41,848 bases of DNA from Ectocarpus siliculosus (Eukaryota; Sar; Phaeophyceae; Ectocarpales; Ectocarpaceae), in NCBI GenBank assembly GCA_000310025.1, contig FN649745.1, positions 1,770,053 to 1,811,900 on the forward strand. The letters are read 5' to 3'. The notes beneath the pieces were generated by a model. That model did no database searches. It saw only the letters and a program-made list of their open reading frames with translations, and had not been told where the DNA came from. Below, in pieces: positions 6,905-36,100 of this stretch (within the stretch, counting starts at the first letter, position 1; each line of letters starts with the position of its first letter). The position numbers and the translations under genes are program-made.

Positions 6905-8173
6905 ATGTCGTTCTTCACGAGCGGTTTCGCGACCATGGTGAACAACAGGCGCCTGAAGGCGGCGAAGAAGGCAGGCACGAAAAGTGAGTTGTCGGCCTGT
7001 GGTGCATGCATGTCGTCGTGGAGGCTGTTGCCTCTAGCGTTTAGCTGTGCTGCGCGGCCGGCTTCACGCGCACGTCGAGGCAAGAACAGGCCGCTGGTTC
7101 TCCCCAACAGCTCACGCTCACCTTCTTTGTGTCTTCTCCTCTTCCTCTCCCATCATGCCTGCACAGACGCAGACAAGAACGTGGAGAGCTCTGATAAGGA
7201 GGAAAAGAACGACTGTGGCAAGGAGGAAGAGAAAGACGAGGGAAAGTGGGACATGCTCACAGACGTTTACGGCCGGGCATACTGGTGAGAGAGATTCCAG
7301 AAGCACGGCAGTCTACCGTCCATGTCTACATGTAGACTTACAACGGAGGCTACACATGTTAGAAAACCGTTTTGGATATTACATTGCTCGTGTGCAGGCG
7401 AGGAAGATCCACACATACCACAATTCATGTAGATACACCGTATAGAGGAATGGATCGTTGGACGCGTCTCACATGGATTGGATGGCTGCTTTGTTTTTCG
7501 CCACCGCCGTTGTACAGTGTACGTGTACAGTAGTACTCAACGTTGTAACACGTGTGCTTCCACTTGTTTGCCTTCCTTTTCAAGCCCGAGCTTGTTCTAA
7601 TCCCCACTAGTGTACAGTATGCACACGTCACTTACTTCATCTCATCAGCGTGAGATGGCAACAATCAGATTCCATGTCCAAACGTCCCGAACTCGTACGC
7701 TCTCAGGCATAGTCTAGACTTGCAGTCTACATCAATTCATATGTTCAGAGAGCATACAGCAGCTTTGTCCAGACGTCTTGCCTCTTCTCACACTCGCTCG
7801 CATCCAGCAATCAACACCATTTTCCCTGAAACTCGCATTGCATATTCTCCGAAATCCAACAACAACCAACAGGCAGCACAACGTGACGGGCGAGTGGGCC
7901 TACGTCTACGGTGGCGGCCTCAGCGCCCCTCCCGTTGTGGCGGTCAGTCCTACACCCATGGCCTGTCCCCACGGCGTGGTCTTCACGCCTCCGCCTGTCT
8001 ACGCCGCCGCCCCCAACCCGCCCCTCCCCACCAAGAAGAAGGACGACGACAAACAGGACGAGAAGAAGGAGAAGGGCAAGGGGTGGTGGGAGACGAAGTA
8101 CGACGAGGACGGGGACCGGTACTGGGAGCACACGGTGACCAAGAAGACCACCTACAAGGACCCCTACTACTGA
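6905..8173 (+). CDS. Two-WW-like-domain protein with PPxY motif, copy 1
   Basis: Three exons: 6905-6983, 7167-7284 and 7873-8173, giving 165 residues. Donors read GTGAGT and GTGAGA, acceptors GCACAG and CAACAG, and phases match. A lysine- and glutamate-rich start (1-53) precedes a first WW-like motif (54-76): W54, D59, G62-R63, Y65-W66, H68-N69, T71, with Y76 where the second Trp is usual. A proline-rich linker (82-119) holds PPVY at 106-109, a PPxY motif, the classic ligand of group I WW domains. After a charged stretch comes a second WW-like motif (138-163): W138, D143, G146, Y149-W150, H152, T155, Y160, P163. There is no signal peptide or membrane segment, so it is probably intracellular. 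The WW reading is by pattern; in both motifs the second Trp is Tyr. Intron 1 here has no stop and keeps frame. The start has a CAG-rich leader and AAACATGTCG context. Confidence 0.75.
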
Positions 8174-8444
8174 AACAGCTGGAACTGAATTGATTCGTAC
8201 GAGTAGAAAGCAGTAGCACAGGCCTAGTACCAGTAGTTGTGGTACAGAAGAAGTAATATACTACTGGCATAACGTAGTTTTGACAAACTGTCGATAAATC
8301 AATGTGCAGTATATGGTAGTCTAGGCTTCGTAGGTTAGCGGTTGCTTCTGTTTTTGGTATACGGCAGCCGTGGCGGCATTCAATCAGCCCTGCTGCAGTG
8401 GGTCATCTGTGGTGGTTTGTTGTTGTATGCATGTAGGTGCCGTG

Positions 8445-8490
8445 TCTCCCGTCATGACGGTACAGCTGCGTTTGGGACTGAGACGGGAGA
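8445..8490 (+). other. Conserved stem-loop downstream of the WW-like gene
   Basis: TCTCCCGTC and GACGGGAGA form a perfect 9-bp stem around a 28-base loop, about 270 bases after the stop codon. The same stem and loop length occur at 12360-12405, 31310-31355 and 35222-35267. In the last case the flanks are diverged but the stem is intact. Unit 3 lacks it. It could be a 3' untranslated element or an unlinked structure; its transcription is not shown. Confidence 0.5.
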
Positions 8491-9924
8491 ATTCCATTGT
8501 GTTTCCTGCCATGCACAAGTAAGCACGATGTCATAGTTTGGTTTGAGTTTATGTCGTTTTCGTTGAGAGTATAGAAACGTTGCCTTTTCACACATGGACC
8601 AAATCTCCTCCTGTATATGTATTTCCCTTAATGTTTTCTTCTCTTGAGAATAATGTGGTGATAGTGGTGGATGCGATATCTATCTGTGGAGGGGCGGTGT
8701 CGCCAAATATTTGCAACGTTCATGTGCATGTGACTGGGGCTAGTTGTTTATGTAGTGTTTGCCTTACCTTGCCGCGGTGCACGTTGCAGCATTGGTTGGA
8801 GGGGAAGGGGAGCATGTGCGGGCTTGGTGAAGGCATTGCGGCCGATCCTTAGCTTAGTCGAGTATGCATTTGGCGTACGAACCAGATCGACACACGAAAA
8901 GCCCGGTCGCTCAGCTAGTGTTTAGGCGTTGGGGTTAGAGGCGATGGGAGGCTTGGGGCTTGGATGGCCGGTGTCGCCAAATTGGTATCACAAACGGCCT
9001 TGGTTGGCCTGCCCGCTTGGCGTCATTTGGTTCGCGTCTTGGTTGTATTAGCCGTTTTGAAACAAGTAATGGCGCCAACAAGGCGTACGTGTGTGTATGG
9101 AGGAAGGTAGGGTCGTTGTGCACGTAGATGCTTTGCTGGGCTCTGCGATCGTGAAACACGTTTAGAGTCGTACTCGTTGTTGTTGATGATGAAAGAAACA
9201 GAACACCAACCCGTGTATGGTACGCTGTCCATGAAGCTTGCTCGATATGGGGCGGTCTCTCTTCTTTACGATTGATACTATACTGCTCTATTCACTCCGC
9301 CACCATTGCGTAGATCACGGCGGTATGTGGATGAACGTTGACGTATGTAGTTGTAGAGATATAACTGGCCTTTGAGTAGTTTCGATCGGGAATGACGAGA
9401 CCTGAACGAAACGGCCTGTCGACGACGAGGTGTATTTTGTGACGAAATGGAACTGAACTGAAATCGGTTCAACATGGTGCGTGTTCAATATACACGGAAT
9501 AATACGTGTACTCCACAACATTGAGCGCAGGCACAACCAGTCGTTTCACGCGGTGCTTTCCTCAGGCTTCAACTACTGTACAATACACGCTCATCATGAT
9601 TTTCTCTCTGATGAGCGACGAACTTGAGCGGTAATGCCTGCCATGGTTTTGTGCGCCGCAGGTCCTGATCTCGGGCAGACCGGTCGACTTTCTTTCTCGT
9701 CGAAGAGAGAGGGGCAGCGGGCAAGCAATGTATGAATAGACTTTTATGAAGCAATTGGGGTCTCGACGACACACCACACACAGACAGCCTGAAGTGCACT
9801 GTCGCTCGCTTATGGCTCTTTCTACGACTGGTCAAGGCCAAAAAGCATTGCCAAGCACACGCGACTACTACTACATAATGTTGAGTGTGGAGTCGGCGAC
9901 CGAAGACATGACGCTCGAGGATGA

Positions 9925-10230
9925 CTAATAGTCTAGGAGGCGCGCCGCAGGAAAGGAAGAGGCACATGTATCCTCGTGCGTGTTGACCTCCACTTGTTCA
10001 GGTCTTTTGCAAAAGATTGCTTCCGCCCAAGCATGGGTCTTGAAACTGCCACCACCTATATGTAAAATGCGATCGATGTCCATCCGGGCGGTTGAGCTAC
10101 CGGACGGAGTACTGGTCCCGGAAATACATGCATGCTTGGTCGGACATGCAAGGGCGCTCGACTGGATTGCTGTAGCCCGTGTCTCTGCGTCCGGCCGCTG
10201 GTATTGGACAACTGCTTTCTTCGCGCTCAC
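9925..10230 (-). other. Unassigned spacer reading frame (conserved in units 1, 2, 4)
   Basis: A 101-codon minus-strand frame overlaps a 103-codon plus-strand frame at 9980-10291. Both stay open in units 2 (13840-14145 and 13895-14206) and 4 (32798-33103 and 32853-33164). The units are so alike that open frames are conserved automatically, so this is weak evidence for coding. Neither product resembles a known family. The few differences between copies do not favour either frame clearly. Confidence 0.2.
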
Positions 10231-10283
10231 ACTTCATCCTTCGGAGTGTCGCCAGGCTCGTCGAGCTAACTGCTTTATTTTAT

Positions 10284-13200
10284 GGCTGTAGTGTGTGTGC
10301 CCAACCAACGATGTTACAGCAGTAGGTATACGCATTCGTGTGCATGGAGAGGGGATGGGTGTGTAGGAGGAGTATAGACAGCGGTGCTCCAGTGCCAGGT
10401 TTAGCGAACCATTTTCCGCGCTCTACGGCCGTGAGAAACCTTCCACGATAGTTCCCTGTGACGGCGGGAGAACTCTGGTCCTCGGGTCGTTGTTCGTTTT
10501 CAGAACCTTTTTGGCAGAACCTTTCTGCAGAACCTCCTTTGCCAGCCAACAAAAGCCTCCGCCGAGCTCTGCTTCGACGAATTCGTGATCTGATTCAAAC
10601 CACAGCAGCCGCGTGGGACAGAGCCACACACACCCACACCACACACAGCCACACAACTGCCCTCTCCATCCCTCTCTCGAGCCCCAACAAACCCTCAACA
10701 GGACCCTCCGAAGCAAGCAGCAAAAGACTTCTCACATATCCGTTAACAGCACAACAGCAGCACCAGCACCAGCAGCACCAGCAACCGCAGCAACAGCACA
10801 CAGGGAAACATGTCGTTCTTCACGAGCGGTTTCGCGACCATGGTGAACAACAGGCGCCTGAAGGCGGCGAAGAAGGCAGGCACGAAAAGTGAGTTGTCGG
10901 CCTGTGGTGCATGCATGTCGTCGTGGAGGCTGTTGCCTCTAGCGTTTAGCTGTGCTGCTGCGGCCGGCTTCACACGCACGTCGAAGCAAGAACAGGCCGC
11001 TGGTTCTCCCCAACAGCTCACGCTCACCTTCTTTGTGTCTTCTCCTCTTCCTCTCCCATCATGCCTGCACAGACGCAGACAAGAACGTGGAGAGCTCTGA
11101 TAACGAGGAAAAGAACGACTGTGGCAAGGAGGAAGAGAAAGACGAGGGAAAGTGGGACATGCTCACAGACGTTTACGGCCGGGCATACTGGTGAGAGGGA
11201 TTCCAGAAGCACGGCAGTCTACCGTTCATGTCTACATGTAGACTTCTGCGTACAACGGAGGCTACACATGTTAGAAAACCGTTTTGGATATTAGCTACAT
11301 TGCTCGTGTGCAGGCGAGGAAGATCCACACATTCATACCACAATTCATGTAGATACACCGTATAGACAAATGGATCGTTGAACGCGTCTCACATGGATTG
11401 GATGGCTGCTTTGTTTTTCGCCACCGCCGTTGTACAGTGTACGTGTACAGTAGTACTCAACGTTGTAACACGTGTGCTTCCACTTGCTTCCCTTCCTTTT
11501 CAAGCCCGAGCTTGTTCTAATCCCCACTAGTGTACAGTATGCACACGTCACTTACTTCATCTCATCAGCGTGAGATGGCAACAATCAGATTCCTTGTCCT
11601 ACCGTCCCGAACTCGTACACGTTCTAGACTAAATGCAGTCTACATACAAATCATGTGTGCAGAGAGCGTACAGCAGCTTTGTCCAGACGTCTTGCCTCTT
11701 CTCACACTCGCTCGCATCCAGCAATCAACACCATTTTCCCTGAAACTCGCATTGCATATTCTCCGAAATCCAACAACAACCAACAGGCAGCACAACGTGA
11801 CGGGCGAGTGGGCCTACGTCTACGGTGGCGGCCTCAGCGCCCCTCCCGTTGTGGCGGTCAGTCCTACACCCATGGCCTGTCCCCACGGCGTGGTCTTCAC
11901 GCCTCCGCCTGTCTACGCCGCCGCCCCCAACCCGCCCCTCCCCACCAAGAAGAAGGACGACGACAAACAGGACGAGAAGAAGGAGAAGGGCAAGGGGTGG
12001 TGGGAGACGAAGTACGACGAGGACGGGGACCGGTACTGGGAGCACACGGTGACCAAGAAGACCACCTACAAGGACCCCTACTACTGAAACAGCTGGAACT
12101 GAATTGATTCGTACGAGTAGAAAGCAGTAGCACAGGCCTAGTACCAGTAGTTGTGGTACAGAAGAAGTAATATACTACTGGCATAACGTAGTTTTTGACA
12201 AACTGTCGATAAATCAATGTGGAGTATATGGTAGTCTAGGCTTCGTAGGTTGGCGGTTGCTTCTGTTTTTGGTATACGGCAGCCGTGGCGGCATTCAATC
12301 AGCCCTGCTGCAGTGGGTCATCTGTGGTGATTTGTTGTTGTATGTATGTAGGTGCCGTGTCTCCCGTCATGACGGTACAGCTGCGTTTGGGACTGAGACG
12401 GGAGAATTCCATTGTGTTTCCTGCCATGCACAAGTAAGCACGATGTCATAGTTTGGTTTGAGTTTATGTCGTTTTCGTTGAGAGTATAGAAACGTTGCCT
12501 TTCACACATGGACCAAATCTCCTCCTGTATATGTATTTCCCTTAATGTTTTCTTCTCTTGAGAATAATGTGGTGATAGTGGTGGATGCGATATCTATCTG
12601 TGGAGGGGCGGTGTCGCCAAATATTTGCAACGTTCATGTGCATGTGACTGGGGCTAGTTGTTTATGTAGTGTTTGCCTTACCTTGCCGCGGTGCACGTTG
12701 CAGCATTGGTTGGAGGGGAAGGGGAGCATGTGCGGGCTTGGTGAAGGCATTGCGGCCGGTCCTTAGCTTAGTCGAGCATGCATTTGGCGTACGAACCAGA
12801 TCGACACACGAAAAGCCCGGTCGCTCAGCTAGTGTTTAGGCGTTGGGGTTAGAGGCGATGGGAGGCTTGGGGCTTGGATGGCCGGTGTCGCCAAATTGGT
12901 ATCACAAACGGCCTTGGTTGGCCTGCCCCCTTGGCGTCATTTGGTTCGCGTCTTGGTTGTATTAGCCGTTTTGAAACAAGTAATGGCGCCAACAAGGCGT
13001 ACGTGTGTGTATGGAGGAAGGTAGGGTCGTTGTGCAGGTAGATGCTTTGCTGGGCTCTGCGATCGTGAAAACACGTTTAGAGTCGAACTCGTTGTTGTTG
13101 ATGATGAAAGAAACAGAACACCAACCCGTGTATGGTACGCTGTCCATGAAGCTTGCTCGATATGGGGCGGTCTCTCTTCTTTACGATTGATACTATACTG

Positions 13201-14198
13201 CTCTATTCACTCCGCCACCATTGCGTAGATCACGGCGGTATGTGGATGAACGTTGACGTATGTAGTTGTAGAGATATAACTGGCCTTTGAGTAGTTTCGA
13301 TCGGGAATGACGAGACCTGAACGAAACGGCCTGTCGACGACGAGGTGTATTTTGTGACGAAATGGAACTGAACTGAAATCGGTTCAACATGGTGCGTGTT
13401 CAATATACACGGAATAATACGTGTACTCCACAACATTGAGCGCAGGCACAACCAGTCGTTTCACGCGGTGCTTTCCTCAGGCTTCAACTACTGTACAATA
13501 CACGCTCATCATGATTTTCTCTCTGATGAGCGACGAACTTGAGCGGTAATGCCTGCCATGGTTTTGTGCGCCGCAGGTCCTGATCTCGGGCAGACCGGTC
13601 GACTTTCTTTCTCGTCGAAGAGAGAGGGGCAGCGGGCAAGCAATGTATGAATAGACTTTTATGAAGCAATTGGGGTCTCGACGACACACCACACACAGAC
13701 AGCCTGAAGTGCACTGTCGCTCGCTTATGGCTCTTTCTACGACTGGTCAAGGCCAAAAAGCATTGCCAAGCACACGCGACTACTACTACATAATGTTGAG
13801 TGTGGAGTCGGCGACCGAAGACATGACGCTCGAGGATGACTAATAGTCTAGGAGGCGCGCCGCAGGAAAGGAAGAGGCACATGTATCCTCGTGCGTGTTG
13901 ACCTCCACTTGTTCAGGTCTTGAGCAAAAGATTGCTTCCGCCCAAGCATGGATCTTGAAACTGCCACCACCCATATGTAAAATGCGATCGATGTCCATCC
14001 GGGCGGTTGAGCTACCGGACGGAGTACTGGTCCCGGAAATACATGCATGCTTGGTCGGACATGCAAGGGCGCTCGACTGGATTGCTGTAGCCCGTGTCTC
14101 TGCGTCCGGCCGCTGGTATTGGACAACTGCTTTCTTCGCGCTCACACTTCATCCTTCGGAGTGTCGCCAGGCTCGTCGAGCTAACTGCTTTATTTTAT
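10284..14198 (+). repeat. Tandem unit 2 (3915 bases)
   Basis: This is a full unit bounded by GGCTGTAGTGTGTGTGCCCAACC at both ends. It carries a leader with three close AGAACC(T) repeats (about 10500-10540), a CA-rich stretch (10623-10655) and a CAG-rich run before the gene, then the gene and a spacer. It is the best reference for the unit. Confidence 0.9.
10810..12087 (+). CDS. Two-WW-like-domain protein with PPxY motif, copy 2
   Basis: Exons are 10810-10888, 11073-11190 and 11787-12087, again 165 residues. It differs from copy 1 by Asn for Lys at residue 37; the third exon's product is the same. Intron 1 is one base longer than in copy 1 (184 against 183 bases), so reading through it would shift frame. 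This supports the region being a real intron rather than coding sequence. Confidence 0.75.
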
Positions 14199-17100
14199 GG
14201 CTGTAGTGTGTGTGCCCAACCAACGATGTTACAGCAGTAGGCATACGCATTCGTGTGCATGGAGAGGGGATGGGTGTGTAGGAGGAGTATAGACAGCGGT
14301 GCTCCAGTGCCAGGTTTAACGAACCATTTTCCGCGCTCTACGGCCGTGAGAAACCTTCCACGATAGTTCCCTGTGACGGCGGGAGAACTCTGGTCCTCGG
14401 GTCGTTGTTCGTTTTCAGAACCTTTTTGGCAGAACCTTTCTGCAGAACCTCCTTTGCCAGCCAACAAAAGCCTCCGCCGAGCTCTGCTTCGACGAATTCG
14501 TGATCTGATTCAAACCACAGCAGCCGCGTGGGACAGAGCCACACACACCCACACCACACACAGCCACACAACTGCCCTCTCCATCCCTCTCTCGAGCCCC
14601 AACAAACCCTCAACAGGACCCTCCGAAGCAAGCAGCAAAAGACTTCTCACATATCCGCGAACGGCACAACAGCAGCACCAGCACCAGCAGCACCAGTAAC
14701 CGCAGCAACAGCAAACAGGGAAACATGTCGTTCTTCACGAGCGGTTTCGCGACCATGGTGAACAACAGGCGCCTGAAGGCGGCGAAGAAGGCAGGCACGA
14801 AAAGTGAGTTGTCGGCCTGTGGTGCATGCATGTCGTCGTGGAGGCTGTTGCCTCTCTAGCGTTTAGCTGTGCTGCTGCGGCCGGCTTCACGCGCACGTCG
14901 AGGCAAGAACAGGCCGCTGGTTCTCCCCAACAGCTCACGCTCACCTTCTTTGTGTCTTCTCCTCTTCCTCTCCCATCATGCCTGCACAGACGCAGACAAG
15001 AACGTGGAGAGCTCTGATAACGAGGAAAAGAACGACTGTGGCAAGGAGGAAGAGAAAGACGAGGGAAAGTGGGACATGCTCACAGACGTTTACGGCCGGG
15101 CATACTGGTGAGAGAGATTCCAGAAGCACGGCAGTCTACCGTTCATGTCTACATGTAGACTTACAACGGAGGCTACACATGTTAGAAAACCGTTTTGGAT
15201 ATTAGCTACATTGCTCGTGTGCAGGCGAGGAAGATCCACACATACCACAATTCATGTAGATACACCGTATAGAGAAATGGATCGTTGGACGCGTCTCACA
15301 TGGATTGGATGGCTGCTTTTTTTTTCGCCACCGCCTTTGTACAGTGTACGTGTACAGTAGTACTCAACGTTGTAACACGTGTGCTTCCACTTGTTTGCCT
15401 TCCTTTTCAAGCCCGAGCTTGTTCTAATCCCCACTAGTGTACAGTATGCACACGTCACTTACTTCATCTCATCAGCGTGAGATGGCAACAATCAGATTCC
15501 TTGTCCTAACGTCCCGAACTCGTACGCTCTCAGGCATAGTCTAGACTTGCAGTCTACATCAATTCATATGTTCAGAGAGCATACAGCAGCTTTGTCCAGA
15601 CGTCTTGCCTCTTCTCACACTCGCTCGCATCCAGCAATCAACACCATTTCCTCTGAAACTCGCATTGCATATTCTCCGAAATCCAACAACAACCAACAGG
15701 CAGCACAACGTGACGGGCGAGTGGGCCTACGTCTACGGTGGCGGCCTCAGCGCCCCTCCCGTTGTGGCGGTCGGCCCTACACCCATGGCCTGTCCCCACG
15801 GCGTGGTCTTCACGCCTCCGCCTGTCTACGCCGCCGCCCCCAACCCGCCCCTCCCCACCAAGAAGAAGGACGACGACAAACAGGACGAGAAGAAGGAGAA
15901 GGGCAAGGGGTGGTGGGAGACGAAGTACGACGAGGACGGGGACCGGTACTGGGAGCACACGGTGACCAAGAAGACCACCTACAGGGACCCCTACTACTGA
16001 AACAGCTGGAACTAAGTTGATTCGTACGAGTAGAAAGCCGTAATACACTAGCAGTACTAGCGGTGCTGGATGTTACTGGCATCACTATTCGATCTTGACA
16101 AACTGCCAATCAATGTGTATATGATAGTCTAGACTTTGTAGGTTGACTGTTTTTGTATGTTATAAGGCAGCCGTGGCGGCATTCAATCAGCGCTGCTGCA
16201 ATTTAGTTGGAAAGAAATGCTGTATTTAATTTGAGTATACCTATTCGTGTTTCCTTGCATGTTTCATTCTATTGAGAAATGTGTCGGTAGTGTCGTGCCA
16301 TACGTTACTCTGTCTCTGTGGGGACGGTGTCGCCTAATATTGCAACGCAAATGTGCGTATGACGGGGGGTAGTTGTTGATCTAGTATTTGCCTTACTTTG
16401 CCGAAGCACAGTTCACCGTTGGTTGGAGAGCGGGGGCGGGAGGTATGTGCGGTCTTGGTGAAGGAATTGTGGCCGGTCGTAGCTCGGTCGAGTTTACATT
16501 TAAAGCACAAATTATCTCGAGTAACATCCGTTGCTTGATCGTATCTAGAGTGACGAAGGTGGTGGCGTTGCTTGCTGTCTCCCCACAAGCTCTCGTGTTG
16601 TTCGTCATTCATCACTTCCTAGTGTTGCGTGCTGTTTTTCTGTCTTGTTCTTGTGTTGGAGTCGGTGTAAATACAAGTGAGGGGGTAACATTGTACGTAG
16701 TCCGTGTCTTGATGTACGTACAATTTCACAGGGGCGCGATAATTAAACGTCTATGCTACATACTGTATTGGTTGATGGTTTGGCGTACGAACCAGACTGA
16801 GATAGCACCAGTTCCAGCGTAGCATGTGGTTGGAGGCGGTGATGCCCACGGCGGTGTGGATTGTCGGCGTCGCTGATGTGATATCACAAACGGCCGTGGT
16901 TGGCCCTCCCCTCTAGTGTCATTTGTTTCGTGTCTTGGTCGTACTAGCCATTTTGAGAGAAAAAGTAGCCAACGATTGTTTGATTGTTTCTGGCGTGTGT
17001 ATGTGTAACGGAGGCAGCATCGTTGAGCCGATAGATGTTTCGCTGGGCTATGTCATCGTGAAACTGTTTTTTGGCGTTAACGATTGCTATTGATGATGAA

Positions 17101-18751: not shown

Positions 18752-21700
18752 TCACAAACTCACGTACTGGTCAACGTTCCGTCTCCTGACCCAAGCCCAC
18801 TCTACCCCTCGCCCGCCCCTGTCCACGAGCTGCATGGTCTTGTCGAAGCTAGGGACAGGAGATTTGCCCTTTTGCGTTTCATCAACATCAAAACTCCGGA
18901 TTACCTCCTTCAGCTGGTCGTAGGCAAACCCTTGCACAGGGGTAGGCCTCCTCATCTGAATATCGGGTGCGACGTAACGTATCACGGCGTTTTTGTTTTA
19001 CCACGAGTGGCTTGAGAGCTAGGACGCGCTTCAATAGAAAACGCGTGGTATTTCGTGCGTTGGGGGCGCCGTTGCCCACGGTTTTGGGTTCGACACAGAT
19101 GGGCGACATGACGTCACCTGCCTAAATAGCATCTTCCGACCAACAAAAACCAGACACGGTAAGATGAGACCATCGGAGTACGGGATGCGCCACGACCAGT
19201 TTTGAGAGGATTGCCGACAGCCTCAAAACGAAAGCGCCAAAAAATGGCTTCACCTTTTCTCTTTCAAGCCTGCACGCGCCAGCATGGTGGACCCTTTCCG
19301 CCGGGCTACCGTCTTCTAGTCTCTCTCCGGCGACCGTCGCCATCGCCTCGACGCTCGACGTTAGCGCTTCTTCGACGAACTCAGACAAGACGCCGCCGGC
19401 GTTTGTCCCAAGCACGGCCTCGATGTCGGCAGCAGGCATCGCCAAGCCGGTGCAAACCTTGACCGCGATTGAAGCCAGGGCCAACCCCAATTCCGCCAAC
19501 GGTTTTGCTTTCTTCGCCCAGCTCAACAACTCCGTCACCTGCCAACGACATATATAGGGTGAAACGTGAGCATCTGTTGCGATTCGAAGAATGAGATGGC
19601 TGTTTCCTGCAACCTTTTGACGTTAGAATTTACGAACCATTTCGAGCTTGCATCTGCCCCAAAAGCCCGCGAATCCCTACCGGCCCGTCGTACGACGATA
19701 CGGAGCAAGCTCGGGGGAAATAATGAAGATGTTCCAGAAAAGGAGACCTCAACGATCAACCCTCCCCGTTGCACAACTCACCTGGTATCCTTGCCCGTCA
19801 GGGCCGCACTCGGCAAGGCTCATATCCAACGGGCAGAGGAAGAACAAGCGCAGCTTTTGCGTCGCAACCCCCCTACCCATTTTATTTCCTTCGGAGCACC
19901 TCTTCTGCAGGACAGTCGACCACTCCTCAAAAGATCTGTCTCTCTCATCGAGAGGTTTCGCCCCGCTTTCGCGAGCTGGGAGCACGCACATCAAGCTGGG
20001 GATCGGCCACCTGCGCATTCCAAGCAAAGTATCCAAGGAAAGTGATTATTTGGGTGACAGCAGTGCTGCAGACGATTCACCCCCTCCAACGAGGAACCGT
20101 TCGTGAAGCATGGATGTGGTTGGTGCGTAGGCGGGGTGGTGGTTTACAGGTAGGAAGCGACTGCTGGGTACTGAGTTTCTCAAGCTCTTGAAAGTACATT
20201 TAAGCAGCCAAACGCTTACAGTAGGAATGCCACGTTCCGCGCCAAGCTGTTCAGGATCCCCCTCTCCGTCTCGTTCAGACCACCTTTCGGAACAGCTGTA
20301 GTCGAAAGGCTCGCCCGGACCACCTGTTCCACGCGGGCCACAACCTCATGCACCTTCGCGTCTAGCTGAAAGTTGGCGTCGCGCTGACAGTCTAGGCATA
20401 GGCTGTTAAGCCGCCTGGCAACAGCCTCGTTAACGCTTAAGCTTTGTCCTTTGAAAGCCTCCAGGAATTCGCTGAGCACACTCTCCAGGCGTTGGTCGAG
20501 CTGCACGGCACCGAGAATAATACAGTGGGTAAGTTCCGTTCCAAATACGCTCTGAGTTGCTCCCAAAACCCGACAAACGAACACAGAAGAGACCTGCAAC
20601 ATGTATAAAACACGACAACGAGTATGTCCCACAAGGCCAACCATCTATGCTGAAAAAACAAGAACCCCGTAGAAATCTCCATCGCATACGCCACGCCTAA
20701 ACAGTGCAACTAGAACGGAAGCAAGTGTCGACAAAATACAACACGACGGACGACATCCAGGCCAACGCCCAATTTGAATCAAAACCGACGCAGGACCAAC
20801 GCGCCATTACCTTGTCGAACAAGTCCTTTTGAAGTGCTTCCAAGCTATCTTGCCAAGCTTCCGTCCCGTTCTCGAACCTGGGGTGAGCCGACGAGTCGAA
20901 CGCCAGTCCCGGGTACGCCTCTCGTAAAAGATCCTTCACATTTTTTTTTATTTCGAACCCGACCTTGAACACGTCGTTTACGTCAGGGCCAGCGATGTTT
21001 ATCTCGATCATGGGCAGAGGCCTGGCAGAAACCTCACCCACTCGTACGAGGCACTCCCGTCCGTCCGCCACAAAGGCCACCCCTCGAGCCCAGCAGGTGC
21101 GGAACATCAAGTTTCGGAAGACTCCACTCTCATCCCGGCCGAATCCGCCCAGGAACTTCGCGATGATCGCCGGCGGAACGTACTTGGCGTAGATTTCGAT
21201 CACGAACTGCATGCGCGTGCCCCGGGACATCGCGTCCTCTAGTTTAGCGAAGGAGTCACCAGTGACGCCGTCCGGAAGCCGAGCGGGAACCATGAACTCT
21301 CTGACGTTACCTTCGGTGACGCCGTCATTGCACGGGAACATGGCGTCGTGCGCAGTCATCGTCTCGACCAGACGGGCAAAGACCTTCTCGTCGACGCCCT
21401 TCAGGACGTCCCGCCACAGGAAACGAAGGAACTCCTCCGTCAGAATACCCGTGGTGGTAAAGTGTCTGAATAGGGATTGAGCGCCCGGAAAGACAATGAT
21501 GTACCTTGGTCATAAGGAAATTGATGAGCTCTACATGTAATCACACTAAGCTGTTGAATGTCCTGTATCCAGCACATCAGGTACCCCGTGACTACGGTGG
21601 TGCACTATTCAAAGCGTGCTTGTAAAACATCTGTGCAAAGCGGGCTGTTCAACATAAGAGCGATCGAAAATACCACATCGACCACTAAATATTACCTGTG

Positions 21701-24700
21701 GGTCTCCAAAAGTTCGTTGATTGGAATGCCGCGGTTTCGCTCGTATGCCTTCAGCTGCTTCCACCACCACTCGTCCTGGCGATTCCAACGATAACGGAAT
21801 TGACAGGTTGTTGCCTACTAAGTCATTTCTCTCTCTTGGGTTCAAACCCTCGTCCCCCTATGCTGGGCGAACGAAAGATTTCCCGGTGGCGTATGTTGAG
21901 CACCCAATCTTTAGTCAATGCAAACTCCCCCGGGGGTCCTGTGCTCTGTATCGCCTTCCGCGGGGTGTATCCCATTAACATACCCCGGGCGAAACATTTT
22001 GAGTGTTCAATGCCCAGCACATTTGATAAAGCAGGGTTTCGACGCCACAAAGATAGGGCCACGCCGGATTTCAACACCAGTTTTCAGAAACTGAAACATA
22101 GCTCACCTCGTTCGGATCTGTCAAGCGGTGGTCCAACACCTCTCGCAGCAGAACGTTGATCCACGACGGGTTCAGGTGAATTAGGCCGCACACCGCCAGT
22201 ACAGATCCGCCCATATGACGGAGGTTGAGCGCCGCCTAACAAAATGTTCAAACCAATATCACGGAGAGGGCAAAGAGGAACACATACGTTGTTTACTTGT
22301 ACATTCATATGCGTCCGAAAGATTTGCGTTGAAGAACGATTGGCCCGTTGGGGGGAACGTTGCTCACCCCCAGCTCGGTGTAATGTCACCGCCCCTCCAT
22401 TGACAGCTTATCACGCTGCAGCACCACACGATGTCCCGAGGCGTTGCACTGACGCAGCCACTGGGCTGCTCCTACGAAGAAAAATCAAGTGGCAGTTGGC
22501 GTGGGCTGGCCACAGAGGGAGCTACAAGAAACAGCCCGATCCGTGGCGGAACCTCGAGACCGCGTCCGTCCCAAGCTAATAGGCGGCGGTGATCCTAAAA
22601 CGCTAAACTTACTTGAGCAAACAAGCAACTTCCATGAAAGCTGAACACCAGCAGCCAAGAAAAAGACACGCCCATCCACCTCACGCGGACCAAAACTGGA
22701 AAATCAAACGCATCCCCCAGGTGACAGGTTTGCTTACACTTTGAAGCGCGCCAAACAGATGTATCTGAACCTAAACTCAGAAGTACTGCTTCAGCAGACA
22801 AGGAGTTTGATATTATCAGGAAACACTACCTTACCTTGAAGTGCCGGGAGGAGACCAGACGAAGCTGCTCGCCGAAGTGCCCAGCGGCCTCCAACTGTGT
22901 CGCCGACTCACGATCCGCGTGCGACCACACCTCAAAGGCTTGTTCCTCGGTCACAAATTCGTGCTTGTCGCGCCCTTCGATCGTAACGACAGGGCCCTCC
23001 AGCCGCACCGCCGAATCTGGATCTGCCCCAACATGAAGGGCGTCCATGACGGCCCATACCCTCCTCCATATTCCCGGAACAATCTTGCGGACGCTAGGAA
23101 ACACGGCGGGCTCGTTGGCTACCTCCCAGATCTTTTCCCCGACAGTCGATAAGCCGTCCAAGCTGCGGCCGGACACCGAAATGAAACCGCATAGGTGGAG
23201 TGAGGGCGGTGCCGGTTTTGAGCGATCTGCCGGAGACTCGGACATAAAATCGCGTCCCGTGGAGGCGGGCCGGGCTTGTGACATAAGTTCGCGCTCTTCT
23301 AGTCGCTTGGCGGCCAGCCAATCCTGCAACAAGATTGGTCGGATAAAGGAAAGCGGAGCTGAATGGTTCGTACAATAGTTTAGCAACCAAGAAAATGCAA
23401 TCAATTTGTAGCACAAACAGGCGTTCTGGGCATGGTCGAACATTTACACTTATTGTTGGTGTTTAGATTATGCCAACGCAGCCATCAAAGTTTGAGACGC
23501 GCACCTGCCGTTTCGTTTCCAGGTGCTCCGTGACCGCTGCCTTAAGGGCTTCGAGAGCTCCGGCTGACCGCTCGTGATCATCACCAAAGGCGTCCGCATG
23601 TGTTGCTACGACGAGAACGGCACTCCCGGGGACCCGGCAGAGTAGTGAGTCCAGCCAAATGTAGACCCCCCCCCCCCGCGAGAGGACGTCTCGGTCGAAC
23701 TTGTGGAGGTCTACTACGAGAAGGTGCAGCGCTCCGTCGGTTAGAAACATCTGTCAAGGAACAACGGAGGAGAGATATCAGATGCATCGGGGATGGTGTA
23801 TTCAAACAAAACGCGTGCAGCACACACACGGAGGTGCACGGACAGCCGACAAGAAAACTCCAAAAACCGGGCGACGGCATCGGACAGAGGATTGTTCGTT
23901 TACAGTACCTAAATCTCGGGTTGCCCAAGGTCCACCTTACTTACTGACCTGGTGGGTAGAATGGTAGTCATCATGCCCGGCGAAATCCCAGATCAAAACC
24001 TCAAGCGGCGGGTCGAAGTCTGGTACCCACGGTTGGATATGCACGTCAATGCCGCGAGTTCTGGGAGGAAGCGTTTGTGCGATTTTTCCGTCCAGCAAAC
24101 CCCGCGCCAGCGTGGTCTTGCCGGCACCCACCGCGCCCACAAGCACAACCTTCAGACTCGGCACGACTTGGCCTCCGGACTGAGATAATCCTTCGTGGAA
24201 GCTGACGACCTGATCCCAGCCACCTTGGATGACGTTCCACGGAGGTGTCTCCCACGGGTTACCTTTAAGGTCGACGCTGAGCTCGGGCATTGCTTTCAAT
24301 CTTTCCGCCGTAGCTCCAGGAATATCTTTCAGAGGGCGGTTACAGAACCAGGGATTGGCGGAAGGGTGCGTCACATACTATAAACAATGTTGATCACATG
24401 CGGAGCGAAATGGAATACAACTCATACACCCAGTACCGTAGGAAAATGCCTTGTACAGTTAAATAGCGAATTTCGTAAGAAATTTAGAAGTAAGGACATC
24501 TTCTACATTTAGAAAGACCTAACGTTTGGGAGACCATTTTTGTTGAGACCAAGCCGTCTTCGGGGTTGCACGGCAAAGATAGCAGGGGCAACACCACGAA
24601 AAATTAGAACAGCTCGCGTAGTAACAATTTGCCCGACACGGTGCTCTGCACCACGTTATCGACGCCATGCTCTCGTCATATGAGTAGTACTGGTCACAAT

Positions 24701-26888: not shown

Positions 26889-26930
26889 TGTAGATAAAAA
26901 GGATAGCGGCGGAATATTGTGGGAACACAT

Positions 26931-29284
26931 GAGGACTACAGCAAACTGTAGTACCCGTTCGAGTTAATTCCTCAATACCCCCCCCTCCGAAGGGACATAC
27001 ATGTGAAATACTTCGAAGTATTTACAACTACTGAGAGATCTGATATGTATGCCGGCCAAGACAAAAACAGATATAGTGCCTCCGCTAACGCCATGCATTT
27101 ATTGTGAATCCTGAAACCTTATCCACGGATTTAGAGGGATTCATTTTGTTGAAGTACTTCGAAGTGCTATGCAAAGGAAAAATAAAATACACCTACAAGT
27201 GAACGGTGGTCCATCAATACACGTGACGTGTAGCGCCCGCACGTAACTTGGTATTTGGTGCTTGTAGTGAAGAACTTGAGCACCATTTTGTGAGCCCGGT
27301 TAGCCCCACATCAAAACCAACACACATATATATACTGTACAAGGCGTCCCTCCGGAGTGGGGTAAAGAGAGCACCGCGGCAAGGGGTGATGCAAGAACAT
27401 GCAAGACATAGATTATAGAGTACGCACTGTTCGTTCCGCATTTATTTATTTGCCGTTTTTTCTGATGCTGCGTCTCCCGCCGCCGCCGCGGATTCCAGGC
27501 CGCCGAACGACTTGAAATTCATCAGAGCCGTATTGTTTCCCAGGAAACGCACACACACACACTCGCCTCAGGCGGGCAGAGAAGAAGCGTTGTATTCGCG
27601 CGTTTAGCATGCAAACAGCAGTATGTTGTAGGGCCGTGACCGTAGCATCATCATGGTGTGTGTCGCACATTCCGGAGAAAAGAAGTAGAGGCCACATGAA
27701 TGTATTATGTGGATGTTACAGTTGCTTCAAAGAACATGTATGACTCTCCAAGTCGAACAGCCGCCGCCTGGAAACAGAAGGGAAAAGAACACCCGAACAG
27801 CCTCCACTGCTATTATAACGACCAGCCAACACAAATGTACAACTGTTCATACATACTGGTATACACCTCAAAGTATTGACCGGGTTTATAGCCCACAAGC
27901 ACTACTACCACCGCTGTTAGGCTCCAACCTCGGCCATTACCTGCGGCCGCTATCTGCAGTGAGTGCCGGTTGAAAAGTGTCACAACCCGGAAAAATAAGG
28001 AAAGTGCCAATTCTGCACCTTCCCAACATAACATATATGGTATGAGACACACAAGACAGCTACCAAACTGTTTTGTTGAGCCTGTTACCCGCAGGGGAGA
28101 TGTCCCTATATGCTGTCTGGGAAATTGTAGACATACAGGTACTTTCTGACGCTATGAATTCATTGCTAATCTGTCTCTGACTCTTTTATATGATAGAGAT
28201 GGATTCGTTGTGTCATATTAAGAAAAATAAAATAGAATAAAAATCTGGTGGAACGGCCTCCTTCTTCTGTGGTGACGTGGCAGCAGAGCAACTTCAAGCG
28301 TGTATTCGTATTTGGCAATTGGGAGCAGTTCACAAGGTAGAAAAGACAAAGAGAAACACCACAGAGCGCAAGCCATCTCCCGTGGAAAGAGGCAGCAGCA
28401 GCACATCAACTACTACAGTAGCAGCACAGCACTACCACCATTAACAAACCCGCTGCTCGAATAATCCCTGTGGAACGAATGAGAACGAACACGTTGGGGT
28501 GGATATTCTATATATCCCTTTTCTTCCGAGAAACCGCGCGAGAAAATACACAATCAATCATGGTGGACCGGGTCACAACAACTGGAGAAGAGAACAAGAT
28601 CGACCCTGTATTGAAGGGACCACGAGCAACGCAGGAAGCACACGAACGTTTATTTCGCCCGGTAGCAGATGGAGATACACAGCCCCAAGAGAGTAGTAGT
28701 CGCGGTAAATCGACTGCCTCTTGTCTCACCGATGATCGCCGACACTCCTGTTTTCCAATTTCCAGCGCCAGCTTCGGGTGTGGGGTACTCAACGTCGGAT
28801 ACAACTAGGTGTGGGCGAGGTATGCATACGTCGCGAGAGAGATCGAGGCTTTGGTGGAGGTGTTTCGGCATGCAGCACAGTGGGAGTAGGAGACGGTAGT
28901 TCCGAGAAACTTCAACAGCGTAGGTTGCATAAGATACCACCCCCCCTCTTGACCGATTTCAACGCTCGATCCTTTGCCGCAATAATAGTATACCTACCTG
29001 CTCTCGATTGGGGCATTGGGGCTGTCTCATCGAGAGCATCCCGATAATTATTATCTGCCTGCTGTGTCACCGTGTCTTCCTTTTCGTCCTGGAGTGATCG
29101 TGCTTTGGAAATCGGCCCAACGGAGTGTACTCTAGTGTAAATATTAGGAAATATATATATACACACAGAATGGACTGAAAGCATTTATCGAACATTAACA
29201 TTATTAGCGCGTATCGACTCAGGGTTTGAACTTTCTTCGTGTTCTACACAAGTACTGACCCAGGGCTCGAGTCTACTGCTTGAA
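26931..29284. other. Intergenic stretch upstream of the ROCO gene
   Basis: No gene is supportable here. The start codons of the ROCO gene (minus) and unit 4 (plus) face away from each other, so this stretch should contain both promoters. Two TTCGAA-centred palindromes lie at 27006-27023 and 27156-27165. Remaining frames are short and unremarkable. Confidence 0.45.
27006..27023. promoter_or_regulatory. 18-bp perfect palindrome, possible protein-binding site
   Basis: AAATACTTCGAAGTATTT is fully self-complementary. A second copy of its core, ACTTCGAAGT, lies at 27156-27165, 150 bases away. Both are within 300 bases upstream of the ROCO start codon. A dimeric regulator site is possible, but chance or remnants of element ends are not excluded. 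Confidence 0.3.
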
Positions 29285-32200
29285 TTTGTGCCAAACCAAC
29301 TGAAGGCAAAGGTATTCGTGGGCATGGGGAGGGCATGGATGTGTAGGGATATGCATAATGGCAGTGTACCAAGTTTCCGGTAACCATTTTCCACACCCAC
29401 TGTAGCCGTGAGAACCTTCCACAATAGTTCCTTGTGACAGCGGGAGAACTCTGGTCCTCGGGTCTCCGATCATTGCTCGTTCAGAACCATTTTGGCAGAA
29501 CCTTTCTGCAGAACCTCCTTTGCCAGCGAACAAAGGCCTCCTCCGAGCTCTGCTTCGACGAATTCGTGTGCTGATTCAAACCACAGCAACAGCAGCCGCG
29601 TGGGACAGGGCCACACACACACACACCACACACAGCCACACAACTGCCCTCTCCATCCCTCTCTCGAGCCCCAACAAACCCTCAACAGAACCCTTCGAAG
29701 CAAGCAGCAAAAGACTTCTCACACATCCGTGAACAGCACAACAACAGCAGCAGCAACAGCACATAGGGAAACATGTCGTTCTTCACGAGCGGTTTCGCGA
29801 CCATGGTGAACAACAGGCGCCTGAAGGCGGCGAAGAAGGCAGGCACGAAAAGTGAGTAGTCGGCCTGTGGTGCATGCATGTCATCGTGGAGGCTGTTGCC
29901 TCTAGCGTTTAGCTGTGCTGCTGCGGCCGGCTTCACCCACGCGTTGAACCAAAACAGGCCGCTGGTTCTCCCCAACAGCTCACGCTCACCTTCTTTGTGT
30001 CTTCTCCTCTTCCTCTCCCATCATGCCTGCACAGACGCAGACAAGAACGTGGAGAGCTCTGATAAGGAGGAAAAGAACGACTGTGGCAAGGAGGAAGAGA
30101 AAGACGAGGGAAAGTGGGACATGCTCACAGATGTTTACGGCCGGGCATACTGGTGAGAGGGATTCCAGAAGCACGGCAGTCTACCGTCCATGTCTACATG
30201 TAGACTTACAACGGAGGCTACACATGTTAGAAAACCGTTTTGGATATTAACTACATTGCTCGTGTGCAGGAGAGGAAGATCCACACATACCACAATTCAT
30301 GTAGATACACCGTATAGAGAAATGGATCGTTGGACGCGTCTCACATGGATTGGATGGCTGCTTTGTTTTTCGCCACCGCCGTTGTACAGTGTACGTGTAC
30401 AGTAGTACTCAACGTTGTAACACGTGTGCTTCCACTTGTTTGCCTTCCTTTTCAAGCCCGAGCTTGTTCTAATCCCCACTAGTGTACAGTATGCACACGT
30501 CACTTACTTCATCTCATCAGCGTGAGATGGCAACAATCAGATTCCATGTCCTAACGTCCCGAACTCGTACACGTTCTAGACTAATTGCAGTCTACATACA
30601 AATCATGTGTGCAGAGAGCGTACAGCAGCTTTGTCCAGACGTCTTGCCTCTTCTCACACTCGCTCGCATCCAGCAATCAACACCATTTTCCCTGAAACTC
30701 GCATTGCATATTCTCCGAAATCCAACAACAACCAACAGGCAGCACAGCGTGACGGGCGAGTGGGCCTACGTCTACGGTGGCGGCCTCAGCGCCCCTCCCG
30801 TTGTGGCGGTCGGCCCTACACCCATGGTCTCTCCCCACGGCGTGGTCTTCACGCCTCCGCCTGTCTACGCCGCCGCCCCCAACCCGCCCCTCCCCACCAA
30901 GAAGAAGGACGGCGACAAACAGGACGAGAAGAAGGAGAAGGGCAAGGGGTGGTGGGAGACGAAGTACGACGAGGACGGGGACCGGTACTGGGAGCACACG
31001 GTGACCAAGAAGACCACCTACAAGGACCCCTACTACTGAAACAGCTGGAACTGAATTGATTCGTAGGAGTAGAAAGCAGTAGCACAGGCCTAGTACCAGT
31101 AGTTGTGGTACAGAAGAAGTAATATACTACTGGCATAACGTATTTTTGACAAACTGTCGACAAATCAATGTGGAGATATGGTAGTCTAGACTTCGTAGGT
31201 TAGCGGTTGTTTCTGTTTTTGGTATACGGCAGCCGTGGCGGCATTCAATCAGCCCTGCTGCAGTGGGTCATCTGTGGTGGTTTGTTGCTGTATGCATGTA
31301 GGTGCCGTGTCTCCCGTCATGACGGTACAGCTGCGTTTGGGACTGAGACGGGAGAAGTCCATTGTGTTTCCTGCCATGCACAAGTTAGCACGGTGTCATA
31401 GTTTGGTTTGAGTTTATGTCGTTTTCGTTGAGAGTATAGAAACGTTGCCTTTCACACATGGACCAAATCTCCTCCTGTATATGTATTTCCCTTAATGTTT
31501 TCTTCTCTTGAGAATAATGTGGTGATAGTGGTGTATGCGATATCTATCTGTGGAGGGGCGGTGTCGCCAAATATTTGCAACGTTCATGTGCATGTGACTG
31601 GGGCTAGTTGTTTATGTAGTGTTTGCCTTACCTTGCCGCGGTGCACGTTGCAGCATTGGTTGGAGGGGAAGGGGAGAATGTGCGGGCTTGGTGAAGGCAT
31701 TGCGGCCGGTCCTTAGCTTAGTCGAGCATGCACTTGGCGTACGAACCAGATCGACACACGAAAAGCCCGGTCGCTCAGCTAGTGTTTAGGCGTTGGGGTT
31801 AGAGGCGATGGGAGGCTTGGGGCTTGGATGGCCGGTGTCGCCAAATTGGTATCACAAACGGCCTTGGTTGGCCTGCCCCCTTGGCGTCATTTGGTTCGCG
31901 TCTTGGTTGTATTAGCCGTTTTGAAACAAGTAATGGCGCCAACAAGGCGTACGTGTGTGTATGGAGGAAGGTAGGGTCGTTGTGCAGGTAGATGCTTTGC
32001 TGGGCTCTGCGATCGTGAAAACACGTTTAGAGTCGTACTCGTTGTTGTTGATGATGAAAGAAACAGCACACCAAGCCGTGTATGGTACGCTGCCCATGAA
32101 GCTTGCTCGATATAGGGCGCTCTCTCTTCTTTACGATTGATACTATACTGCTCTATTCACTCCGCCACCATTGCGTAGATCACGGCGGTATGTGGATGAA

Positions 32201-33156
32201 CGTTGACGTATGTAGTTGTAGAGATATAACTGGCCTTTGGGTAGTTTCGATCGGGAATGACGAGACCTGAACGAAACGGCCTGTCGACGACGAGGTGTAT
32301 TTTGTGACGAAATGGAACTGAACTGAAATCGGTTCAACATGGTGCGTGTTCAATATACACTGAATAATACGTGTACTCCACAACATTGAGCGCAGGCACA
32401 ACCAGTCGTTTCACGCGGTGCTTTCCTCAGGCTTCAACTACTGTACAATACGCGCTCATCATGATTTTCTCTCTGATGAGCGACGAACTTGAGCGGTAAT
32501 GCCTCCATGGTTTTGTGCGCCGCAGGTCCTGATCTCGGGCAGACCGGTCGACTTTCTTTCTCGTCGAAGAGAGAGGGGCAGCGGGCATGAACAAACAAGC
32601 AATGTATGAATAGACTTTTATGAAGCAATTGGGGTCTCGACGACACACCACACACAGACAGCCTGTAGTGCAATGTCGCTCGCTTATGGCTCTTTCTACG
32701 ACTGGTCAAGGCCAAAAAGCATTGCCAAGCACACGCGACTGCTACTACATATGTTGAGTGTGGAGTCGGCGACCGAAGACATGACGCTCGAGGATGACTA
32801 ATAGTCTAGGAGGCGCGCCGCAGGAAAGGAAGAGGCACATGTATCCTCGTGCGTGTTGACCTCCACTTGTTCAGGTCTTGAGCAGAAGATTGCTTCCGCC
32901 CAAGCATGGATCTTGAAACTGCCACCACCTATATGTAAAATGCGATCGATGTCCATCCGGGCGGTTGAGCTACCGGACGGAGTACTGTTCCCGGAAATAC
33001 ATGCATGCTTGGTCGGACATGCAAGGGCGCTCGACTGGATTGCTGTAGCCCGTGTCTCTGCGTCCGGCCGCTGGTATTGGACAACTGCTTTCTTCGCGCT
33101 CACACTTCATCCTTCGGAGTGTCGCCAGGCTCGTCGAGTTAACTGCTTTATTTTAT
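29285..33156 (+). repeat. Tandem unit 4
   Basis: The left 200 bases (to about 29460) are clearly diverged from units 2, 3 and 5, as expected at an array edge. From there on the unit, including its spacer (about 31200-33150), is nearly identical to units 1 and 2, although it lies on the other side of the ROCO gene. Start codons of genes 4 and 5 are 3910 bases apart. Confidence 0.9.
29773..31039 (+). CDS. Two-WW-like-domain protein with PPxY motif, copy 4
   Basis: Exons are 29773-29851, 30035-30152 and 30739-31039, giving 165 residues. With copy 5 it shares Ser69 instead of Asn inside the first WW-like motif and VS for AC at 96-97 (PMVSPHG). It alone has Gly124 in the acidic run before the second motif. 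Intron 1 has a stop right after the donor (GTGAGTAG), so only splicing gives the full protein. Confidence 0.75.
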
Positions 33157-36100
33157 GGCTGTAGTGTGTGTGCCCAACCAACGATGTTACAGCAGTAGGC
33201 ATACGCATTCGTGTGCATGGAGAGGGGATGGGTGTGTAGGAGGAGTATAGACAGCGGTGCTCCAGTGCCAGGTTTAGCGAACCATTTTCCGCGCTCTACG
33301 GCCGTGAGAAACCTTCCACGATAGTTCCTTGTGACGGCGGGAGAACTCTGGTCCTCGGGCCGTTGTTCGTTTTCAGAACCTTTTTGGCAGAACCTTTCTG
33401 CAGAACCTCCTTTGCCAGCCAACAAAAGCCTCCTCCGAGCTCTGCTTCGACGAATTCGTGATCTGATTCAAACCACAGCAGCCGCGTGGGACAGAGCCAC
33501 ACACACCCACACCACACACAGCCACGCAACTGCCCTCTCCATCCCTCTCTCGAGCCCCAACAAACCCTCAACAGGACCCTCCGAAGCAAGCAGCAAAAGA
33601 CTTCTCACACATCCGTGAACAGCACAACAGCAGCACCAGCACCAGCAGCACCAGTAACCGCAGCAACAGCAAACAGGGAAACATGTCGTTCTTCACGAGC
33701 GGTTTCGCGACCATGGTGAACAACAGGCGCCTGAAGGCGGCGAAGAAGGCAGGCACGAAAAGTGAGTTGTCGGCCTGTGGTGCATGCATGTCGTCGTGGA
33801 GGCTGTTGCCTCTAGCGTTTAGCTGTGCTGCTGCGGCCGGCTTCACACGCACGTCGAAGCAAGAACAGGCCGCTGGTTCTCCCCAACAGCTCACGCTCAC
33901 CTTCTTTGTGTCTTCTCCTCTTCCTCTCCCATCATGCCTGCACAGACGCAGACAAGAACGTGGAGAGCTCTGATAAGGAGGAAAAGAACGACTGTGGCAA
34001 GGAGGAAGAGAAAGACGAGGGAAAGTGGGACATGCTCACAGACGTTTACGGCCGGGCATACTGGTGAGAGAGATTCCAGAAGCACGGCAGTCTACCGTCC
34101 ATGTCTACATGTAGACTTCTGCGTAGAACGGAGGCTACACATGTTAGAAAACCGTTTTGGATATTACATTGCTCGTGTGCAGGCGAAGAAGATCCACATA
34201 TACATGCCACAATTCATGTAGATACACCGTATAGAGGAATGGATCGTTGAACGCGTCTCACATGGATTGGATGGCTGCTTTGTTTTTCGCCACCGCCTTT
34301 GTACAGTGTACGTGTACAGTAGTACTCAACGTTGTAACACGTGTGCTTCCACTTGCTTCCCTTCCTTTTCAAGCCCGAGCTTGTTCTAATCCCCACTAGT
34401 GTACAGTATGCACACGTCACTTACTTCATCTCATCAGCGTGAGATGGCAACAATCAGATTCCATGTCCTAACGTCCCGAACTCGTACGCTCTCAGGCATA
34501 GTCTAGACTTGCAGTCACATACAAATCATGTGTGTAGAGAGCGTACAGCAGCTTCGTCCAGACGTCTTGCCTCTTCTCACACTCGCTCGCATCCAGCAAT
34601 CAACACCATTTTCCCTGAAACTCGCCTTGCATATTCTCCGAAATCCAACAACAACCAACAGGCAGCACAGCGTGACGGGCGAGTGGGCCTACGTCTACGG
34701 TGGCGGCCCCAGCGCCCCTCCCGTTGTGGCGGTCGGCCCTACACCCATGGTCTCTCCCCACGGCGTGGTCTTCACACCTCCGCCTGTCTACGCCGCCGCC
34801 CCCAACCCGCCCCTCCCCACCAAGAAGAAGGACGACGACAAACAGGACGAGAAGAAGGAGAAGGGCAAGGGGTGGTGGGAGACGAAGTACGACGAGGACG
34901 GGGACCGGTACTGGGAGCACACGGTGACCAAGAAGACCACCTACAAGGACCCCTACTACTGAAACAGCTGGAACTGAATTGATTCGTAGGAGTAGAAAGC
35001 AGTAGTACAGGCCTAGTACCAGTAGTTGTGGTACAGAAGAAGTAATATACTACTGGCATAACGTAGTTTTTGACAAACTGTCGACAAATCAATGTGGAGT
35101 ATAGTCTATGATAGGTCTAGACTTTGTAGGTTAGCGGTTGTTTCTGTTTTGTCATTCGGTAGCCGTGGCGGCATTTATTAACCTGTGGGTGACTTGTTTT
35201 TGTGTGCATGTAGGTGCCGTGTCTCCCGTCATGACCGTTCAGCTGCGTTTGAGACTGAGACGGGAGAATTCCATTGTGTTTCCTGCCATGCACAAGCAAG
35301 CACGAAGTTGTAGTTTGGTTTGAGGTTATGTCGTTTTCGTTGAGAGTACAGAAACGTTGCTTGAGAGTGCGACCTTGTTCACACAGGCTCTAGTCTACTG
35401 TTGTAAATTTTCCTGCATGTTTCCTTCTCTTGAGATTGTGTGGTGAAGTGGTGTATGTATGCGTTAACCTACATATCTGAGGAGGGGCGGTGTCTACTTG
35501 TATTTGCAACGTACATGTGTTTGATGCGGGGGTAGTTGTTGGTACTTTCCTTACTTTGCCGCGGCACGGTGCAGCATTGGTTGCAGGGGGGGAGGGGGGG
35601 GGATATGTGCGGGCTTGTTGAGGCATTGCGGCAGGTCGTATGTATGTAGCTTGGTCAAGTTTAGTTCGAAAGCACAGAGAGGCTCTCGAGTGAAGAACAT
35701 ACATATTTTCTTAATCGGATCTAAGCGTGAAAGAAAGAAGGGGCTGGCGTCGCTTGCTGTCTCTCGCAATCTCTCGTGTTGTTCGTTCGTCATTCATCAC
35801 TTCCGAGTATTGTGCTGTTTTTCTGTCTTGTTCTTGTGTGGTTGGGTAAGCTGTAGGTATTTGCGATTCTTGATGTACGTACACTATTCACGGGGACGCG
35901 ATGCGCCCAACGGCTTGACGAACGTGCCAGACTGACACCGGATGTAAACCCGTGTAGCGTGGCTGGTGTTTAGGCGTTGTGGTTGGGGGCGGTGGTGGCC
36001 GCGGCGCTGTGGAATGCCGGCGTCGCTGTTTTGATATTGATATCACAAACGGCCTTGGTTTGCACAAACACCCTACAGTAGCGTCATTTGGTGTACGGCA

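Follow-up and report, generated by a model that had tools for sequence, protein, structure and literature searches.

One of the closest described systems to the genes reported here is PRPF40A/Prp40, in which two tandem WW domains (group II/III) read proline-rich motifs and a proline-rich stretch of the protein itself competes with the ligands; the intramolecular proline motifs of PRPF40A are described as filtering the ligands of the WW tandem (PMC11079029). The genes lie in a window of 41,848 nucleotides (nt) of the brown alga Ectocarpus siliculosus (contig FN649745.1, here C20; C20:1770053-1811900), the right end of which is the end of contig C20, and they form a five-copy family for a 165-residue protein with two WW-like segments, WW1 (residues 54-76) and WW2 (residues 137-163). 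We put at about an even chance the reading that the five genes encode a small two-armed adaptor, whose two diverged WW domains would bind proline-rich partners. The likeness to PRPF40A has its limits: the latter is a spliceosome protein and its inhibitory stretch is N-terminal to the tandem, whereas the candidate stretch of the window protein is situated between the two domains; these domains score below the Pfam cut-off, and nothing links the window protein to splicing. Yeast Prp40 is nevertheless among the solved-structure matches of the window protein (E 6.8, residues 138-163).

Five intact genes were found on the forward strand between positions 6905 and 34962 of the window (Table 1). Each exon anchor is present five times on that strand, and the reverse strand of the window holds no full set of them. 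All copies can be spliced at GT...AG junctions into 79+118+301 nt, with introns in phases 1 and 2 and without internal stops, and any two of them are separated by 1-8 differences in 498 nt and 1-6 in 165 residues. The initial annotation of the window had proposed five three-exon genes with near-identical 165-residue products, and both the anchor counts and the splicing of all copies bear this out. In copy 1 the intron after exon 2 splits the codon of Trp66 between TG and G. Searches of the genome (189 Mb, 492 contigs) revealed four relatives, of which paralogues A, B and C are located on C20, 22-34 kb before the window, and the weaker D on C26.

The copies are products of a tandem duplication with a unit of ~3.9 kb that takes in the introns and a large part of the flanking sequence; a stretch of ~15 kb lies between copies 3 and 4. 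Intron 2 differs between copies by 1.4-4.1% and the exons by 0-2.3%. The 500 nt upstream match closely among copies 2, 3 and 5 and the 500 nt downstream among copies 1, 2 and 4, the pattern to be expected if tandem duplication was uneven. Since introns and flanks differ between copies, the array is not one copy assembled five times. As judged from substitutions and gaps, the five-copy genes are shown to be under coding constraint, with a conserved exon structure. The 498-nt coding sequence is free of insertions and deletions across the five copies, against three distinct gap intervals in intron 1 (186 alignment columns) and six in intron 2 (603 columns). Paralogues A and B have kept the three exons, and their ratio of nonsynonymous to synonymous divergence (dN/dS) is 0.38-0.52, both versus the window copies and versus each other. 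A blastn comparison of copy 1 and its flanks with A and B returned only matches on or beside exons, among them ~60 nt of sequence preceding the A start codon. Among the five copies dN/dS ranges from 0.26 to 1.59, values that are too thinly based to be informative, with no more than eight differences per pair; copy 3, for instance, is separated from copies 4 and 5 by one synonymous and six nonsynonymous differences.

The case for WW domains begins with the residues. In copy 1, WW1 contains W54, D59, G62, Y65, W66, H68, T71 and Y76, and WW2 contains W138, D143, G146, Y149, W150, H152, T155, Y160 and P163. Across the copies, the first Trp, central Gly, aromatic pair, Thr and closing Pro of WW2 (W138, G146, Y149 W150, T155, P163) stand at the usual spacing, and WW1 keeps all usual-spacing residues except the closing Pro, which is replaced by Gly. 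The WW model of Pfam (PF00397; curated cut-off 26.9 bits) listed 136 places in the genome, best candidates only being scored, of which 81 exceeded the cut-off and none was on C20. Sixty of the 81 were translated into an own-genome WW profile, the other 21, mostly partial, being omitted. Counts over the 59 of these 60 domains that could be placed by a simple pattern (which itself restricts places 28, 29, 31 and 39) gave Trp in 54, Tyr in four and Val in one at place 39, Asn in 49 and His in five at place 31, and Trp in three at place 29; both segments of the window copies have all three of Trp29, His31 and Tyr39. Because Tyr occupies place 39 in four of the 59 over-cut-off domains of the same genome, its substitution for the second Trp need not be disqualifying.

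Against the own-genome profile, WW2 scored 18.1-22.0 bits (four sequences, with none of 2000 shuffles as good for each) and WW1 7.3-15.1 bits (six sequences, 0 to 3 of 2000 shuffles as good for each). Alignment of the family's segments to this profile with hhalign gave probabilities of 95.3 for WW1, 96.6 for WW2 and 96.9 for both together; in each of the three alignments none of 300 column shuffles scored as high, and reversed alignments reached 0.3-0.6. When the whole protein was compared with solved structures by phmmer, seven of the eight matches at E<=10 were WW proteins, and a profile of seven family segments matched WW entries in 11 of 14 cases, the best being 6rss (E 0.0011 over its full chain and 0.027 over the domain alone). 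The best single sequence matches of WW2 were the NEDD4-family domains of WWP1 (2op7, E 0.029, residues 137-163) and WWP2 (6rss, E 0.059), with which it shares W-E, G, R-Y, T, T-T and K-D-P. In the NEDD4 family the second aromatic residue is Phe and not Trp, the window protein has Trp-x-His where NEDD4-family domains have Phe-x-Asp-His, and neither a C2 nor a HECT domain is present in its 165 residues. Taken at the level of profiles, the comparisons support a distant homology of both segments to WW domains, firmer for WW2, at scores outside formal Pfam membership.

Several observations weigh against reading the segments as functional WW domains. WW2 alone scored 16.9 bits against the Pfam model (E 0.0064), which is below the cut-off, as were the full proteins of copy 5 (11.7 bits, E 0.27), A (13.0 bits, E 0.11) and B (14.7 bits, E 0.033), and the scan returned no row for the full protein of copy 1, for WW1 alone or for either segment of C. 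Within the whole copy 1 protein, the own-genome profile gave WW1 just 5.8 bits, and column-shuffled WW1 alignments reached an hhalign probability of 85.8, so that 95 stands only a little above noise and the case for WW1 is clearly weaker. The first Trp is absent from both segments of D, and at place 39 of WW2 there is Lys in C and Asn in D, i.e. the groove is degenerate in these relatives. AlphaFold, given residues 129-165 as a single sequence, produced a two-stranded hairpin (E8-14/E20-26; mean predicted local distance difference test score, pLDDT, 71, with a block mean of 91 for piece residues 11-20) and no third strand from this single-sequence input; whole exon 3, modelled from five near-identical rows, had a mean pLDDT of 55. 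Foldseek returned 67 matches to the WW2 model at E<=10, none at 0.001 and no WW structure among them (best E 2.0, to DnaD), and VIA-align found Z>=2 in none of 108 chains, again without a WW structure. Both searches started from a two-strand model, for which they are not informative.

The absence of a Pfam match over the cut-off, the two-stranded prediction and the lack of a structural match would also be compatible with an unrelated beta-hairpin repeat that has converged on the W-D-G-aromatic spacing. We regard such convergence as distinctly unlikely in view of the own-genome profile and hhalign results with their shuffle controls, and of relative D, both segments of which have Asn at place 31, as most WW domains do, and the second of which gives a weak Pfam WW match (E 0.0485). 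A descent from WW domains followed by loss of ligand binding has to be taken more seriously, although we still doubt it: the disordered, charged and proline-rich parts would then do the work, and the hairpins would be structural or dimerising. The second Trp is indeed missing from all family members seen, groove residues are gone in C and D, AlphaFold yields a hairpin only and scores remain under the Pfam cut-off; yet the aromatic places are kept in the copies, A and B, the Tyr recurs in the own-genome WW domains counted above, and no part of the protein is better conserved than WW2 among the copies, A and B. By its residues, then, the family is WW-like and partly degenerate. What the initial annotation had said of the WW spacing in copy 1 was exact to the residue, its Tyr in place of the usual second Trp is seen in the copies (Y76, Y160), and the Pfam scan agrees that the full protein is not a recognised family; its tandem WW domains stand as distant homology of both segments by profiles, but no copy reaches the Pfam cut-off, and the hairpin modelled for WW2 neither bears out nor contradicts a three-stranded fold.

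His at position 32 of a WW domain is the determinant of group I, the PPxY-reading class. In the window copies place 32 is occupied by Thr (WW2) or Asn/Ser (WW1), the His of the family being at place 31, and the group I His is thus absent. FE65 resembles the family in this respect, its WW domain being a poly-proline binder with His at the usual WW Asn place; unlike the family it has PTB domains, and no FE65 entry appeared among the solved-structure matches. As place 32 is not His, poly-proline or PPLP-type motifs are predicted to be more likely ligands than PPxY, following the division of WW domains into group I, which binds PPxY, and group II/III, which binds poly-proline (PMC1557994).

The adaptor that we envisage would be small and mostly disordered, with a proline-rich and then charged linker between the two diverged domains, each of which would fold as a WW-type sheet. 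WW2 would be the main arm, binding a proline-rich partner through a groove of Y149 and Y160 together with Thr155 and the closing P163, and WW1 a weaker second grip, so that the protein might bridge or position proline-rich partners. The chief effect of having five copies would be a higher dosage. The PPLP and PPVY motifs in the linker of the window copies could act as internal competitors of such partners, as the proline-rich stretch of PRPF40A does, and by this analogy self-masking is possible; neither motif is present in A, B, C or D, which shows that self-masking is not conserved and counts against it. The same two motifs, lying between both segments in all five window copies, could alternatively mean that true WW domains are permanently bound to the linker of their own or a neighbouring chain, making a self-assembling element and not an adaptor. 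With both motifs missing from the four relatives, we consider such self-assembly very improbable.

The seven genome places that share the block coding for WW2 (Table 1) are the five copies, A and B, all on C20. Copy 1, A and B have 80 degenerate codons specifying the same residue, with 20 synonymous differences, none of which falls in the last 32 codons that cover WW2. A trailing run of this length was seen in none of 20,000 permutations, and a run as long anywhere in four. Synonymous divergence (dS) is 0 over residues 137-165 in all three comparisons, 0.27-0.57 in WW1 and 0.84-0.87 over residues 1-26. Past the stop codon, where the identity breaks off, the three loci are no longer alike. In the remainder of these genes, synonymous differences affect 20 of the 48 degenerate codons that specify the same residue, which makes strong codon bias an unlikely explanation for the whole of the identity. 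Ectopic gene conversion is, on the sequence pattern, the likelier cause; a nucleotide-level constraint keeping the block identical is not told apart from it by these data and appears less likely.

A more comprehensive proposal, to which we assign a low probability, is that of an adaptor repertoire in which ectopic gene conversion homogenises WW2 between separate and inverted loci as far as the stop codon but leaves WW1 and the linker to diverge, and in which the window copies have gained PPVY and PPLP as self-ligands to become a self-masked two-armed switch, with a Tyr-Trp-x-His core that would define an undescribed WW subtype. Should the WW2 block indeed be homogenised independently of the remaining gene, this locus would provide a natural experiment on which portion of such an adaptor has to remain constant. 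In lineages remote from animals and fungi, detection of WW domains relies chiefly on strict-cut-off profiles; such cut-offs missed the present tandemly amplified family of tandem WW-like proteins in a genome where 81 WW places exceed them. Among the papers that full-text searches listed for WW domains together with brown algae or Ectocarpus, none deals with such a family by its title or the start of its abstract.

A, B, C and D each have two WW-like segments, some of them degenerate, around a linker with 18-25% proline. Paralogue C reads WEQRTDPYGRLCW before its long intron and QHRQTGQVTY after it, after which come a long linker and the second segment, with DPYY at its end. Single-sequence searches link D to the family weakly, at E 0.30 with the copies as query and at 0.055-0.060 in the opposite direction; its layout is a further reason for counting it as a relative. 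A and B are arranged head to head, with start codons ~550 bases apart (C20:1737492-1738046), and may share a promoter. A viral or bacterial origin of the family was rejected, no relative being found in phage records, viral contigs or prokaryote genomes.

Table 1. Coordinates of the five gene copies, their motifs and the relatives (window positions unless a contig is named).
Feature	Position	Strand	Remark
Copy 1 exon 1	6905..6983	+	residues 1-26
Copy 1 exon 2	7167..7284	+	first half of WW1, residue 54 onward at 7247-7284
Copy 1 exon 3	7873..8173	+	second half of WW1 7873-7903, proline-rich linker, WW2 8084-8164, stop
Copy 1 PPVY	7991..8002	+	linker, residues 106-109; same in other four copies
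Copy 1 PPLP	8018..8029	+	linker, residues 115-118; same in other four copies
Block coding WW2	8060..8173 (copy 1)	+	114 nt, 99-100% identical at seven genome places
Copy 2 exon 1	10810..10888	+	
Copy 2 exon 2	11073..11190	+	
Copy 2 exon 3	11787..12087	+	
Copy 3 exon 1	14725..14803	+	
Copy 3 exon 2	14990..15107	+	
Copy 3 exon 3	15700..16000	+	K161R at end of WW2
Copy 4 exon 1	29773..29851	+	
Copy 4 exon 2	30035..30152	+	
Copy 4 exon 3	30739..31039	+	
Copy 5 exon 1	33683..33761	+	
Copy 5 exon 2	33946..34063	+	
Copy 5 exon 3	34662..34962	+	
Paralogue A	C20:1737492-1736015	-	three exons
Paralogue B	C20:1738046-1739499	+	three exons
Paralogue C	C20 ~1747950-1743910	-	2.76-kb intron splits same Trp codon as in copies
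Relative D	C26 5834156 to ~5833243	-	two exons, same split Trp codon, proline-rich linker, end DPYI

Other candidate assignments were set aside. Matches to the phage GP46 (E 0.12) and 60S acidic protein (E 0.63-1.1) families, far below cut-off and in charged stretches, were taken as chance, as was a BNR repeat in the second segment of C (E 0.019-0.09, below cut-off, 11-12 residues). An N-terminal amphipathic helix in exon 1 (MSFF...NNRR) was likewise rejected, the hydrophobic moment being 0.08 in the copies, 0.07 in A and 0.24 in B, with 4560, 4729 and 2407 of 5000 shuffles, respectively, at least as high.

The window ends (position 41848) in a low-complexity stretch, and neither TTTAGGG nor CCCTAAA occurs in the window. 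Between copies 3 and 4 an open frame on the reverse strand (23937-24377) encodes a Roc GTPase domain (PF08477, 35.4 bits, E 1.4e-8); the other reverse-strand open frames of this interval (20697-21509, 20216-20644, 22826-23443 and 19122-19622) have no family over the cut-off. Ahead of copy 1, at 5068-5800 on the forward strand, a weak reverse-transcriptase match below cut-off (PF00078, E 0.29) falls in a long open frame, possibly an old retroelement. Elsewhere in the genome, several over-cut-off WW matches are clustered over several kb at each of C15:1688048-1696493, C16:7180399-7183447 and C3:5116099-5119490. Finally, a WW exon below the cut-off at C2:4811058-4811176 has an acceptor that appears to give the phase-2 split of the present family, immediately ahead of the Tyr-Asn place; it was the only such case among 14 acceptor-side pieces inspected.

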